A stretch of 64,000 nucleotides of DNA from Nitratireductor aquimarinus (GTDB taxonomy: Bacteria; Pseudomonadota; Alphaproteobacteria; Rhizobiales; Rhizobiaceae): NCBI RefSeq assembly GCF_017255295.1, contig NZ_JAFKDE010000006.1, forward strand, positions 62,001 to 126,000. The letters are read 5' to 3'. Of the stretch, positions 25,747 to 63,940 are shown in pieces. The notes beneath the pieces were generated by a model. That model did no database searches. It saw only the letters and a list, made by a program, of their open reading frames with translations, and was not told where the DNA came from. The number at the start of each line of letters is the position of its first letter. Position 1 is the stretch's first letter. Position numbers and translations under genes: made by a program.

Positions 25747-25870
25747 GTGCGTGGTTCGACAAGCTCACCATGAGGGATGGGATTGGCTGCACAACTGGTG
25801 AGCAAGGGTGTGGAACCGGTCTTCACCGCGAAGCCCACCTCCCTCATGGTGAGCTTGTCGAACCACGCAC
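25747..25870. repeat. REP-doublet (REPIN-like) inverted repeat
   Basis: Two 31-bp arms, 25747-25777 and 25840-25870, are perfect reverse complements separated by 62 bp. The core TTCGACAAGCTCA-NN-ATGAGGG recurs in the doublet at 43276-43439. It fills most of the gap between btaB and the convergent serine hydrolase gene. Repeats with this core are common between genes of alphaproteobacteria. Confidence 0.8.
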
Positions 25871-43222: not shown

Positions 43223-43275
43223 GGATCATTTGTGCTGCGGGCGTGAGCCTGCGGCACTGTCAGCGCGTGCCTTCT

Positions 43276-43439
43276 CCCCCGCCCTTCGACAAGCTCAGGA
43301 TGAGGGAGAAGGCAGATTAACCGTGCTATCTTTGATCAGGCGAGATTACGTTTGAAAGCCCTCTGATAGGGTGGGCTCCGACTTGCCAAGTCCTCCCCTC
43401 CAACCCAGCCCTCATCCTGAGCTTGTCGAAGGGCGGGGG
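43276..43439. repeat. REP-doublet (REPIN-like) inverted repeat
   Basis: Two perfect 31-bp inverted arms, 43276-43306 and 43409-43439, separated by 102 bp. The core TTCGACAAGCTCA-NN-ATGAGGG is shared with the doublet at 25747-25870, with GG instead of CC at the variable pair. It occupies most of the 346-bp gap between the TPP enzyme gene and the convergent paaE; nothing coding is seen there. Confidence 0.8.
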
Positions 43440-43481
43440 CGACATGGAGGGGCAGCGGAAAATCCATAAGAGCAGGCGCTT

Positions 43482-43529
43482 GCCCCTCATCCCCCTGCCG
43501 GGACCTTCTCCCCGCTTGCGGGGAGAAGG
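43482..43529. repeat. RIME-like palindromic element (single copy)
   Basis: GCCCCTCATCCCCCTGCCGG followed by CCTTCTCCCCGC-TT-GCGGGGAGAAGG. This is the same module pair seen in paaD (45141-45266) and at 55621-55746. It lies next to the REP doublet, 40 bp after the paaE stop on the minus-strand reading, and may act as its message-end hairpin. Confidence 0.75.
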
Positions 43530-43568
43530 AACGCGTCATTGACGGTTGTCAGAAATGAAACGCGCTGA

Positions 43569-44648
43569 TCAGGCGGCGTCGAAATCGAGGACCAGCTTCT
43601 TCGCCGTGGGGCGGGTCTGGCAGGCGAGTGTGAAGCCGGCTTCCACTTCCCAGGGTTCGAGCGAGAAGTTCACGGCCATTTCCGACTGCCCCTCCACAAC
43701 GCGGCAGCGGCAGGTGCAGCACATGCCACCGGCGCAGGAGTAAGGCAGCTCGATACCGGCCTTGTGGGCAGCGTCGAGCACGGTGCCATCGGCATCCTGC
43801 ATGGAGAAGCTGCGGCGCACGCCATCGACAACGACCTCAATGGCAACACCATCCTGAACCGCTTCGCGTGCGGCCTTCGATGCCTTGCGGGGCGCGGGCG
43901 CTTCGCCGGAGGGCGTGAAGCGCTCGAAGCGGATGCGGTCACGCTCGACACCCATGGTCTCAAGTGCGCCGGAAACCGCGTCGATCATCTCGCCGGGGCC
44001 GCACAGGAACACGCCATCCATGGCGGCGGGCTCGATGAGACCGCCGGAGGCGAGCTCGCCAACGCGCCCGGCATCAATGCGGCCATTCAGGAGCTCCACA
44101 TCCTGCGTTTCGCGCGACAGGAGATGGATCAGCGTGAAGCGGCCCATATGGCGGTCCTTGAGATCGTTCAGCTCCTCAAGGAACATGATCGTCTCGGTGG
44201 AGCGATTGCCATAGACCAGCGTGATGGTGCTCTCGGGCTCGTGGGCGAGAACCGTGCGGGCGATGGAGAGCATTGGCGTGATGCCGGAGCCGGCGGCGAA
44301 CAGCAGGTAATCGTGGCGCTCACCCTTCAGCGCGGTGAAGCGGCCCTGCGGCGGCATCACCCGGATCGTGTCGCCAACCGACAGGACATCGTTGACGAAG
44401 GTGGAGAAGCGGCCATCGGCCACCTTCTTCACACCGACGCGGAGATACGGATCGCCGGGCGCGGAGCAGATGGAATAGGACCGGCGCGCCTCCGTGCCGT
44501 CAATATCGGTGGCGAGCGTCAGATACTGGCCGGGCGTGAAGGCAAAGGCCTCGGCCTGATCGGCCGGGATCTCAAAGGCGATCGCCACGGCTTCGGGGGT
44601 CTGGCGCTCGATGGAGGCCACTTTCAGATCGTGAAAACGCGGGGCCAT
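43569..44648 (-). CDS. paaE: Phenylacetyl-CoA 1,2-epoxidase reductase subunit PaaE
   Basis: A 359-aa ferredoxin-NADP reductase-like protein: FAD-binding domain (about 1-105, RRSYSICSAPGD), NAD(P)-binding domain (about 110-235, LLFAAGSGITPMLSIAR and VFLCGPGEMI) and a C-terminal plant-type [2Fe-2S] domain with ligands in PYSCAGGMCCTCRCRVVEG and LACQTRP. It feeds electrons to the PaaABC diiron oxygenase. The start is the ATG at 44648, 4 nt after GAGG. Last of paaABCDE. Confidence 0.94.
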   Translation of the reverse strand: MAPRFHDLKVASIERQTPEAVAIAFEIPADQAEAFAFTPGQYLTLATDIDGTEARRSYSICSAPGDPYLRVGVKKVADGRFSTFVNDVLSVGDTIRVMPPQGRFTALKGERHDYLLFAAGSGITPMLSIARTVLAHEPESTITLVYGNRSTETIMFLEELNDLKDRHMGRFTLIHLLSRETQDVELLNGRIDAGRVGELASGGLIEPAAMDGVFLCGPGEMIDAVSGALETMGVERDRIRFERFTPSGEAPAPRKASKAAREAVQDGVAIEVVVDGVRRSFSMQDADGTVLDAAHKAGIELPYSCAGGMCCTCRCRVVEGQSEMAVNFSLEPWEVEAGFTLACQTRPTAKKLVLDFDAA

Positions 44649-44670
44649 GGTCACCTCGGTCTGGGTTCAG

Positions 44671-45300
44671 TCAGATACATTTGAAATAGTCGAAAGGCTC
44701 GTGGCAGGTCTGGCAGCGGTAAAGCGCCTTGCAGGCCGTGGAACCGAACTCGGAAATGCGCGCGGTCTCGAGCGAACCGCAGCGCGGGCACGCCACCTCC
44801 GTCTCGCCGAAAAGGGAGCGGATGGAATTGGACGCATTCGCCGGTGGCGCAATGCCATAGGCGCGCAGCTTTTCACGCCCCTCCGCCGTGATCCAGTCCG
44901 TCGTCCATGCGGGCGAAATGACCCGCTCGATGCGCGGTTCGAAACCCGCCTCGCGCAACGCCGTCTCCACCGCGAGCTCAATGGCAAGCACCGCCGGGCA
45001 GCCCGTATAGGTGGGCGTGACGCGGGCAACGGCGACGTCACCCTCCATCTCCACACCGCGCAGGATGCCGAGATCGGCAATGGTGACGGCGGGGATTTCC
45101 GGATCGACCACGGAAGCGGCGGCGCGATAGGCGCGCTCTTCCTTCTCCCCGCCTGCGGGGAGAAGGTGGCCCGAAGGGTCGGATGAGGGGCTTTGCACAG
45201 CATCCGAGAGGCAGGCTCGCCCCTCATCCCCCTGCCGGGACCTTCTCCCCGCAGGCGGGGAGAAGGAGGCTGTCACGACCTTATCCGACCTCGCACTCAC
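44671..45300 (-). CDS. paaD: PaaD (phenylacetyl-CoA epoxidase assembly factor), with an in-frame repeat insertion
   Basis: MIP18/DUF59-family protein for maturation or repair of the PaaABCE complex. The conserved part reads SVVDPEIPAVTIADLGILRG, with TPTYTGCPAVLAIE in the middle and zinc-type cysteines CPRCGS and CQTCHEPF near the end. The GTG start at 45300 overlaps the paaC stop. The predicted length is 209 aa, against about 165 in E. coli: residues 12-53 are encoded by a complete 126-bp RIME-like repeat that keeps frame and adds no stop. Without it the protein is 167 aa. An alternative is that translation starts after the repeat, but no good start is visible there. Confidence 0.85.
   Translation of the reverse strand: MSARSDKVVTASFSPPAGRRSRQGDEGRACLSDAVQSPSSDPSGHLLPAGGEKEERAYRAAASVVDPEIPAVTIADLGILRGVEMEGDVAVARVTPTYTGCPAVLAIELAVETALREAGFEPRIERVISPAWTTDWITAEGREKLRAYGIAPPANASNSIRSLFGETEVACPRCGSLETARISEFGSTACKALYRCQTCHEPFDYFKCI
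45141..45266. repeat. RIME-like mosaic element inside paaD
   Basis: Two terminal palindromes, CCTTCTCCCCGCC-TGCGGGGAGAAGG (45141-45166) and CCTTCTCCCCGCA-GGCGGGGAGAAGG (45241-45266), flank a middle with GATGAGGGGC and GCCCCTCATCCCCCTGCCGG. The length of 126 bp is a multiple of three. Boundaries are ambiguous by a base; no target-site duplication is evident. The same modules occur between genes at 43482-43529, 55621-55746 and 63887-63940. Confidence 0.88.
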
Positions 45301-46082
45301 CAGGTCATCCCCGGATAGGTGCGCTGCATGTATTGCAGCTCCGCGAGCAGGAAGCCCAGTGCCTCGCCATGGCGACCCTGACGGCCACCGGTCTGGCCAT
45401 AGGGCGTTTCCACCCATTCAAGGCCAGCTTCGGCAAAGACCGGGCCGACAATGGCGTCGAAGGCAGGCCGCAGGGTGGACGGGTCGGGCGCGATGCCGGC
45501 CCCGGCCACGGCGCGGGTGACATCATCGCTCTCGAACAGCTCGTCCACATAGGGCGCGAGCGCCTCGACCGCCGCCTTCATGCGGCGGGTGCTTTCTTCC
45601 GTGCCATCGCCAAGGCGCACCACCCATTCGCCGGCATGGCGGATGTGATAGGCGACTTCCTTCTCGGCCTTGGCGGCGATGCCGGCCAGACGCTCGTCGG
45701 TCGACGTCATCATGGCCTGCCAGAGCGGCTGCATGAAGGCTGCGAAATAGAACTGGCGCAGCATGGTGTGTGCGAAATCGCCATTCTGGCGCTCGGCCAT
45801 CAGGCAGTTCACATATTCACGCTCGCGGCGCACATAGGCGATCTGGTCCTCGTCGCGACCCTTGCCCTCAACCTCGCCGGCATATTGGTAGAGCGAACGC
45901 GCCTGACCGATGAGATCGAGCGCCATGTTGGGCATGGCGAGATCCTCTTCCAGCATGGGCGCGTGGCCGCACCACTCCGAAAGCCGGTGGCCGAGAACCA
46001 GATGATCGTCGGCAAGCCGCAACAGGAACGCCGTCAGCGTTTCGCCGGAGATGGAAGGAGCGGTGGAAGAAGCAGCGGCCAT
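45297..46082 (-). CDS. paaC: Phenylacetyl-CoA 1,2-epoxidase structural subunit PaaC
   Basis: A 261-aa ferritin-like subunit that pairs with PaaA but is catalytically degenerate in the known complex. Motifs: LADDHLVLGHRLSEWCGHAP, EEDLAMPNMALDLIGQARSL, MLRQFYFAAF and KEVAYHIRHAGEWVVRLGDG as in other PaaC. The ATG at 46082 shares bases with the paaB stop (TGATG); a GTG one codon earlier is the alternative. The stop overlaps the paaD GTG. Confidence 0.93.
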   Translation of the reverse strand: MAAASSTAPSISGETLTAFLLRLADDHLVLGHRLSEWCGHAPMLEEDLAMPNMALDLIGQARSLYQYAGEVEGKGRDEDQIAYVRREREYVNCLMAERQNGDFAHTMLRQFYFAAFMQPLWQAMMTSTDERLAGIAAKAEKEVAYHIRHAGEWVVRLGDGTEESTRRMKAAVEALAPYVDELFESDDVTRAVAGAGIAPDPSTLRPAFDAIVGPVFAEAGLEWVETPYGQTGGRQGRHGEALGFLLAELQYMQRTYPGMTW

Positions 46083-46369
46083 CACATATGCCCCACTTCT
46101 TCCGGAATTTCGTAAAAGGTCGGGTGACGGTAGACCTTCGACATTGCCGGCTCGAAGTTCTCGTCCTTGTTTTCCGGGTCCGACGCGGTGATCGCAGACG
46201 ACGGCACGACCCAGATGGAGGTGCCCTCGCCGCGGCGCGTGTAGACATCGCGCGCAGCCTGAAGCGCCATCACCTCATCGGCGGCGTGCACCGAGCCGCA
46301 ATGCTTGTGGGCCAGCCCGTTGCGCGGGCGGATGAAGACTTCCCAAAGGGGGATCTGGTTCTTGCTCAT
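46082..46369 (-). CDS. paaB: Phenylacetyl-CoA 1,2-epoxidase subunit PaaB
   Basis: A 95-aa small subunit needed to assemble the epoxidase. The sequence WEVFIRPRNGLAHKHCGSVH followed by DVYTRRGEGTSIWVVPSSAI is diagnostic for PaaB. It lies between paaA (13 bp upstream) and paaC (overlapping). The start is MSKNQIPLWEV at 46369; the longer in-frame extension overlaps paaA. Confidence 0.95.
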   Translation of the reverse strand: MSKNQIPLWEVFIRPRNGLAHKHCGSVHAADEVMALQAARDVYTRRGEGTSIWVVPSSAITASDPENKDENFEPAMSKVYRHPTFYEIPEEVGHM

Positions 46370-55620: not shown

Positions 55621-55746
55621 GCCAGCGCTGCCCCTCATCCGCCTGCCGGCACCTTCTCCCCGCGCACGGGGAGAAGGACGAAGCGACACCGTCTACGCCC
55701 CCTTCTCCCCGCCTGCGGGGAGAAGGTGAGGATGAGGGGCGAGCGC
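55621..55746. repeat. RIME-like element between ABC ATPase and permease genes
   Basis: GCCCCTCATCC-GCCTGCCGG is followed by two palindromes, CACCTTCTCCCCGC-GCACGGGGAGAAGG (55651-55677 region) and CCTTCTCCCCGCC-TGCGGGGAGAAGG (55712-55737 region), then GATGAGGGGCGAGC. It is about 126 bp, the size of the copy in paaD, and sits inside the operon in the 159-bp gap. Confidence 0.8.
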
Positions 55747-63886: not shown

Positions 63887-63940
63887 GGCGCTCGCCCCTC
63901 ACCCTTACCCTCTCCCCGCCAGCGGGGAGAGGGAGACCTC
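63887..63940. repeat. RIME-like palindrome after pcaB
   Basis: CTCGCCCCTCACCCTTACCC followed by CTCTCCCCGCCAGCGGGGAGAG, a diverged version of the module at 43482-43529 and 55621-55746. It lies 29 bp after the pcaB stop and can form a strong hairpin. Nothing else is seen to the window end. Confidence 0.65.

Follow-up and report, generated by a model that had tools for sequence, protein, structure and literature searches.

The phenylacetate-degradation gene paaD of Nitratireductor aquimarinus contains, in frame, a complete RIME-like palindromic repeat (RIME, Rhizobium-specific intergenic mosaic element). The reading that we favor, at a probability of roughly 0.88, is that the repeat inserted behind the paaD start and is read through as a near-neutral, disordered tail at a permissive site. 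The window, meaning the whole 64,000-nt stretch of DNA that was analyzed, has the following features at this locus.

45297 to 46085, minus strand: paaC, the upstream gene of the operon, from the ORF list.
44671 to 45300, minus strand: paaD, 209 aa; its GTG start and the stop of paaC share the letters of GTGA.
45268 to 45300, minus strand: first 11 paaD codons, 5′ of the element.
45240 to 45267, minus strand: start-proximal 28-nt inverted arm with its own 12-bp stem palindrome.
45141 to 45266, minus strand: the RIME-like palindromic repeat that paaD carries in frame, with inverted arms, genome copies, and plasmid matches.
45140 to 45167, minus strand: distal 28-nt inverted arm with its own 12-bp stem palindrome.
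44671 to 45147, minus strand: conserved PaaD region, modeled with confidence from a helix at residue 52 onward.

The paaD ORF is stop-free over its 209 aa, and its GTG start (45300 to 45298) overlaps the TGA of paaC (45299 to 45297), as the preliminary description of this DNA had reported. The element begins at the second position of codon 12 and ends at the first position of codon 54, and the earlier statement that it is exactly 42 codons long and opens no stop agrees with the coordinates of the 126 nt within the ORF; without it, the protein would be 209 − 42 = 167 aa by arithmetic only. RIMEs are defined by two terminal palindromes, and the paaD element has both: its two 28-nt arms are perfectly inverted and separated by 72 nt, with the palindrome beginning at nucleotide 34 of the gene. 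Downstream, the PaaD family model TIGR02159 matched residues 64 to 209 (191 bits), and Pfam matches to FeS_assembly_P and Zn_ribbon_PaaD were also obtained, the Fe-S assembly domain matching from residue 59. We conclude that a complete RIME-like element lies in frame inside paaD, as had been described.

The element is dispersed and multicopy. BLAST with the paaD element gave 130 pieces in the genome of the organism (4.57 Mb, 28 contigs), and merging of these left 49 places in the stretches examined. Of the three other copies that had been proposed in the window, the one at 55650 to 55728 does have two palindromes, whereas the one near 43482 is a single-palindrome half and the one near 63887 is a variant that crosses the window end.

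43478 to 43530, strand not given: half element with one palindrome, on the 3′ side of the ORF at 43569 to 44654 (minus strand), which is presumably paaE.
55650 to 55728, strand not given: two-palindrome relative of the element, within the window.

Two long inverted repeats at 43273 to 43442 and 25747 to 25870, which have TTCGACAAGCTCA in common, are apparently another type of palindromic repeat.

Search of plasmid DNA with the element returned 261 records, and in 43 of them a place matched 80% or more of its length. The match in Sinorhizobium meliloti pSymB spanned the full 126 bp at 77% identity, and matches in Shinella plasmids were full length at 82%; the sequence is thus common to Rhizobium and Sinorhizobium repeats, and the name RIME-like is fair. 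The element resembles RIMEs in its length of about 126 bp, its paired terminal palindromes, its many copies, and its full-length pSymB counterpart, and it differs in that RIMEs are named for their position between genes, whereas the paaD copy lies within a reading frame. Its identity with RIME1 or RIME2 is presumptive. No match to the Y1 transposase family (PF01797, E ≤ 0.001) was found in the N. aquimarinus genome, while the same search found the family in 5 of 14 genomes as a control; elements of the REP type are mobilized by such a transposase.

Among the 60 plasmid records listed of the 261, the best place had no gene in 50, no annotation in 3, and a named gene in 7. Three of the seven gene-naming records and 1 of the 50 gene-free records were opened, and the latter has a single annotated feature, so that "none" is uninformative. 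When the repeat was translated in the PaaD frame and searched against plasmids as a peptide, six records came up, five without a gene under the match and one unannotated.

The junction between paaC and paaD was compared in relatives. For each of the 10 genus genomes, the spacing between the paaC stop and the conserved DPEIP motif (194, 230, 101, 101, 101, 164, 116, 128, 161, and 131 nt) leaves a remainder of 2 on division by 3, and the junction is stop-free. The inserts range from the full element down to short remnants, with a different repeat in two genomes. Nitratireductor sp. B36 (locus L001) has the same element with the same flanks and a 36-nt in-frame length change, and its PaaD is 95% identical to that of the window. 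By eye, a longer module in B36 (L001:2502-2731, against window positions 45140 to 45267) replaces part of one arm for a net gain of 36 nt in frame, and the replacing module resembles a sequence in locus L117. Unusual conservation of the insert between these two genomes was considered and dropped, as identity within it is inside the local range.

Short-read assemblies can misplace repeats, and misassembly could have joined one into paaD. That the same insert and flanks occur in B36 and that other inserts lie in the single-contig genomes G042 and G184 makes such an artefact scarcely credible.

PaaD was found in 137 of 394 genomes searched (138 matches, from which the 8 weakest were left out), and 100 further loci were added. 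The junction set, named relatives included, came to 220 loci with the motif, 202 of them distinct; a fuzzy match to the conserved C-terminal motif of PaaC upstream of PaaD recognized paaC in 198 of these 202 and not in the other 4. An inverted-repeat score of at least 13 was reached by 16 of the 198 junctions and by none of 1,980 shuffled ones, the maximum of which was 12. All 16 palindromic junctions were in frame and open, and unrelated palindromes occupy this paaD site in frame in other genera. The remaining 182 junctions split 127/32/23 over frames 2, 1, and 0 because many lineages start paaD elsewhere. Two Bacteroidetes junctions (L077, 170 nt; L080, 145 nt) contained stops and lacked a palindrome. 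As a natural contrast, the junction L222:1024-1233 (genome G095) carries repeat-like sequence (score 7) that is out of frame, contains stops, and is apparently untranslated. The comparison of junctions that the preliminary description had called for supports the in-frame reading, both in the genus (10 of 10) and among the palindromic junctions (16 of 16).

The inserts at this site are of several kinds. By eye, they were sorted into RIME-like repeats, repeats about 162 bp or about 133 bp long, and types that have CCCTCCCC stems, and three of the types at the PaaD site are multicopy in whole genomes. The 162-bp type is multicopy in G042, G273, G003, G139, G155, G241, and G095, and the 133-bp and RIME-like types are multicopy in G290; at least one further copy of the 133-bp type was present in G078 among the matches listed. 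No further copies of the L121 and L122 repeats were found among the matches listed at E ≤ 1e-12, and their standing as repeats rests on a similar second sequence (in L002 and L131) and on their palindromes (score 19 in L122 and 9 in L121).

In a quick tree of PaaC plus PaaD with 128 rows, in which 42 of 125 inner branches are open and many forks are weak, all 16 palindromic junctions fell inside one 37-row clade (SH-aLRT 97). Within that clade the junction distance is at least 95 nt in 28 of 37 rows, the reading is in frame in 36, and 9 have no classified repeat at the site. Outside the main clade, L218 (200 nt) and L222 (210 nt) have long junctions. With labels assigned by eye from the sequences, remnants included, and with L087, L146, L218, and L222 left out of the counts, the repeat label changes at least 15 times and presence or absence at least 9 times over the whole tree. 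The 16 palindromic junctions do not represent as many independent events. From the several repeat types and the repeated label changes, we conclude that one site was filled several times by different elements.

The same pattern was found in the beta subunit of glycyl-tRNA synthetase (GlyS). A RIME lies in the middle of the protein in G002 and G004, while in two congeners, N. aquimarinus (G000) and G005, the linker at that place is 5 aa long; at the loci L095 and L105, from two genomes of the genus, the in-frame RIME was seen in the linker after RYDLIDAV. In other genera, the same loop is filled by other palindromic sequences. The linker was measured between both flanking motifs in one frame, a measure that all 72 loci passed, in a sample biased toward the 30 best-scoring loci, to which 40 of 75 other matches and L095 and L105, found through their inserts, were added. 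Linkers were 25 to 82 aa long in 24 loci, 6 to 17 aa in 11, and exactly 5 aa in 37, and every one was stop-free. The inverted-repeat score of the 24 long linkers was at least 12 in 18 and above that of their own ten shuffles in 20, and 6 of the 24 had no clear palindrome. The insert site corresponds to residues 557 to 563 of the solved chain 7yse_C and falls between the Pfam matches to tRNA_synt_2f and DALR_1. When sites with and without an insert were compared by eye within one genus for a target-site duplication, the differences extended beyond the insert.

The acidic N-terminal region of N. aquimarinus FtsY (L260:924-2651; G000:C7:199323-201050, minus strand) contains a RIME-like in-frame segment, which follows a long Glu-Pro repeat and precedes SRP54_N. 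FtsY was matched in 9 of 10 genus genomes, and repeat-like peptides were seen by eye in all 9 loci; the inverted-repeat score was at least 13 in 5 of the 9, a value that has no shuffle control and includes one partly masked locus.

Further cases were noted on plasmids. An E2 acyltransferase on Pararhizobium qamdonense plasmid p2 (L381:1704-3023) has a RIME-like segment between its lipoyl and E3-binding domains, and another such segment lies at about residues 150 to 193, just before the second Pyr_redox_2 stretch, of an oxidoreductase on a plasmid of Shinella sp. PSBB067 (L382:1554-2978). A transporter on a Rhizobium phaseoli plasmid has the repeat at its C terminus. In a pick of 20 longer repeat-overlapping ORFs of the N. 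aquimarinus genome, taken from a scan of part of the 49 repeat places, Pfam found 16 without a domain, 3 in which the repeat lies where the ORF begins (L254, L258, and L270), and FtsY; the 16 domain-free ORFs are probably spurious GC-rich or antisense frames. Likewise, of 52 RIME-peptide matches in the genus, 15 loci were read, and by eye they comprised 1 FtsY, 1 PaaD, and 13 that looked spurious, antisense, or unassignable. In the sequences compared, in-frame and stop-free repeats appear in many species and in several genes. The preliminary description, which treated paaD as one case and in-frame RIMEs as not otherwise known to occur, underestimated the scope of a recurrent pattern.

If PaaD started inside or behind the repeat, the repeat would be an untranslated spacer and its openness a matter of chance in GC-rich DNA. 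Other in-frame start codons do exist: the window ORF has one GTG at codon 9, another within the repeat (codon 35), and one directly before DPEIP, and 13 of the 16 palindrome carriers, the window copy included, have another in-frame ATG, GTG, or TTG before or inside the palindrome. In 13 of the 16, at least one such codon falls within the last 33 nt or elsewhere from palindrome to domain, and in 13 the part between the palindrome and those 33 nt has none. RIMEs, moreover, often have three of six frames open (exactly three in 16 of the 22 places of 105 to 175 nt in the N. aquimarinus genome, the paaD copy included), and the L222 junction is an instance of out-of-frame repeat-like sequence. The lengths of these 22 places show no preference (7/7/8 over the three remainders modulo 3), and with mostly three open frames a random RIME copy would fit in only a minority of cases.

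Retention of the frame in all 16 palindromic junctions and all 10 genus genomes nevertheless speaks for translation of the repeat. Given the other in-frame start codons, the choice of start is settled only in L142, which from the overlapping GTG up to the domain has no in-frame ATG, GTG, or TTG. Were PaaD to start at the GTG before DPEIP, it would lose the predicted first helix (residues 52 to 62), and start choice cannot account for the internal in-frame insertions in GlyS, FtsY, and E2. Translation starting behind the repeat is unlikely on these grounds, less clearly so for the window copy with its GTGs before, inside, and behind the repeat, and an untranslated spacer is quite improbable. 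Frame retention and L142 in the relatives thus support the proposal that the repeat is read in frame as PaaD sequence.

An AlphaFold2 model of PaaD gave coil of low confidence for residues 1 to 51 (block means of pLDDT 42 to 56 for residues 1 to 50) and a mean pLDDT of 96 for residues 51 to 60, with the confident domain beginning at a helix at residue 52, for which the last part of the element supplies the codons of the first residues. The PaaD insert is therefore predicted to be disordered.

The mRNA of the element is predicted to form one long hairpin (−124.1 kcal/mol, z −9), and a hairpin of such stability might impede translation. Such a structure could slow translation of paaD or mark the mRNA for processing and so tune PaaD relative to PaaABC, the frame being only a side condition, and it would suit this role that in none of the 16 palindromic junctions does the palindrome begin before nucleotide 18 of the gene, which leaves the start itself free. 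A regulatory hairpin is nonetheless hard to reconcile with the 9 of 37 clade rows that have no classified repeat at the site, with repeat type, length, and arm integrity that vary freely and include palindrome-free remnants, and with similar repeats in the middle of glyS and ftsY. Regulation is possible but would leave the free turnover of elements unexplained, and we consider it unlikely.

Substitutions by codon position bear on what is selected. In the gap-free pair L141/L142, the counts were 3/5/3 in the junction plus insert versus 5/1/20 in the domain, and although the former are 11 substitutions only, selection seems from these counts to act on the frame more than on the peptide. Other pairs were mixed (L083/L084, 3/2/8; L083/L085, 4/4/9; L084/L085, 4/4/3). 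The repeat-coded peptide is probably made and would be near neutral. Co-option of the peptide for PaaD function, for example in docking to the PaaABC complex, could explain why an insert or remnant is kept across the genus and why the B36 and window proteins are so alike. Yet sister genera have different, unrelated peptides at the same site, the insert is disordered in the model, L141/L142 gives no sign of amino acid constraint, and junctions shrink to 101 nt within the genus, and we regard co-option as very improbable.

In the favored reading of a permissive insertion, a RIME-like repeat would insert just behind the paaD translation start, and the GTG overlapping the paaC stop would stay 5′ of it, allowing the ribosome to read through. 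With no stop opened and 42 codons added, a disordered N-terminal tail would precede an unchanged PaaD domain. Selection would preserve the frame rather than the peptide, insertions would persist only where extra sequence is tolerated (the PaaD N terminus, the GlyS beta loop, the FtsY N-terminal region, and inter-domain linkers), and the inserted repeats would then decay through in-frame deletions.

Rickettsia palindromic elements (RPEs) are described as short palindromic repeats of several families that occur between genes and in frame inside conserved genes (PMC2229807, PMC10969869). The repeats in PaaD, GlyS, FtsY, and E2 resemble RPEs in lying in frame inside conserved genes and differ in being GC-rich repeats of Rhizobiaceae, with unrelated types filling the same sites (the PaaD N terminus and the GlyS loop). 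The insertion is best read as working like that of RPEs, by way of other repeats and in another bacterial group, and the likeness is one of mode of working. ERIC, RU, and Correia are likewise small palindromic elements with open frames that are fused in frame to genes, according to PMC2229807; they are enterobacterial and neisserial repeats, and target duplications are known for several of them. A 2024 review calls in-frame fusions of small repeats not unusual, with RPEs as the extreme case, and considers a similar route of protein evolution conceivable in other prokaryotes (PMC10969869).

Among the papers listed by a literature search of titles and the beginnings of abstracts, which did not extend to the founding paper on RIME or to the 2002 paper on RPEs, none described RIME-type repeats inside genes, and excerpts of PMC3233446 and PMC2873474 merely cite the RIME paper. 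In-frame fusion is known for RPEs and for enterobacterial and neisserial elements, and what appears to be new is the presence of RIME-type repeats in frame in Rhizobiaceae genes.

We think it somewhat probable that Rhizobiaceae have a Rickettsia-like traffic of several unrelated types of palindromic repeat, which land repeatedly in the same permissive codon positions of genes that are essential or catabolic (the GlyS loop, the PaaD N terminus, and the FtsY N-terminal region), where they would be swapped, overwritten, and trimmed in frame, and that these sites are natural hot spots of protein insertion. In-frame repeat capture looks recurrent in the family, with filled and empty sites within one genus and in an essential synthetase, which makes it testable whether selfish repeats feed raw material to proteins. 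In rhizobia-like bacteria, repeat DNA classed as "intergenic" seems to become protein, and annotators are warned that such repeats can be coding sequence.
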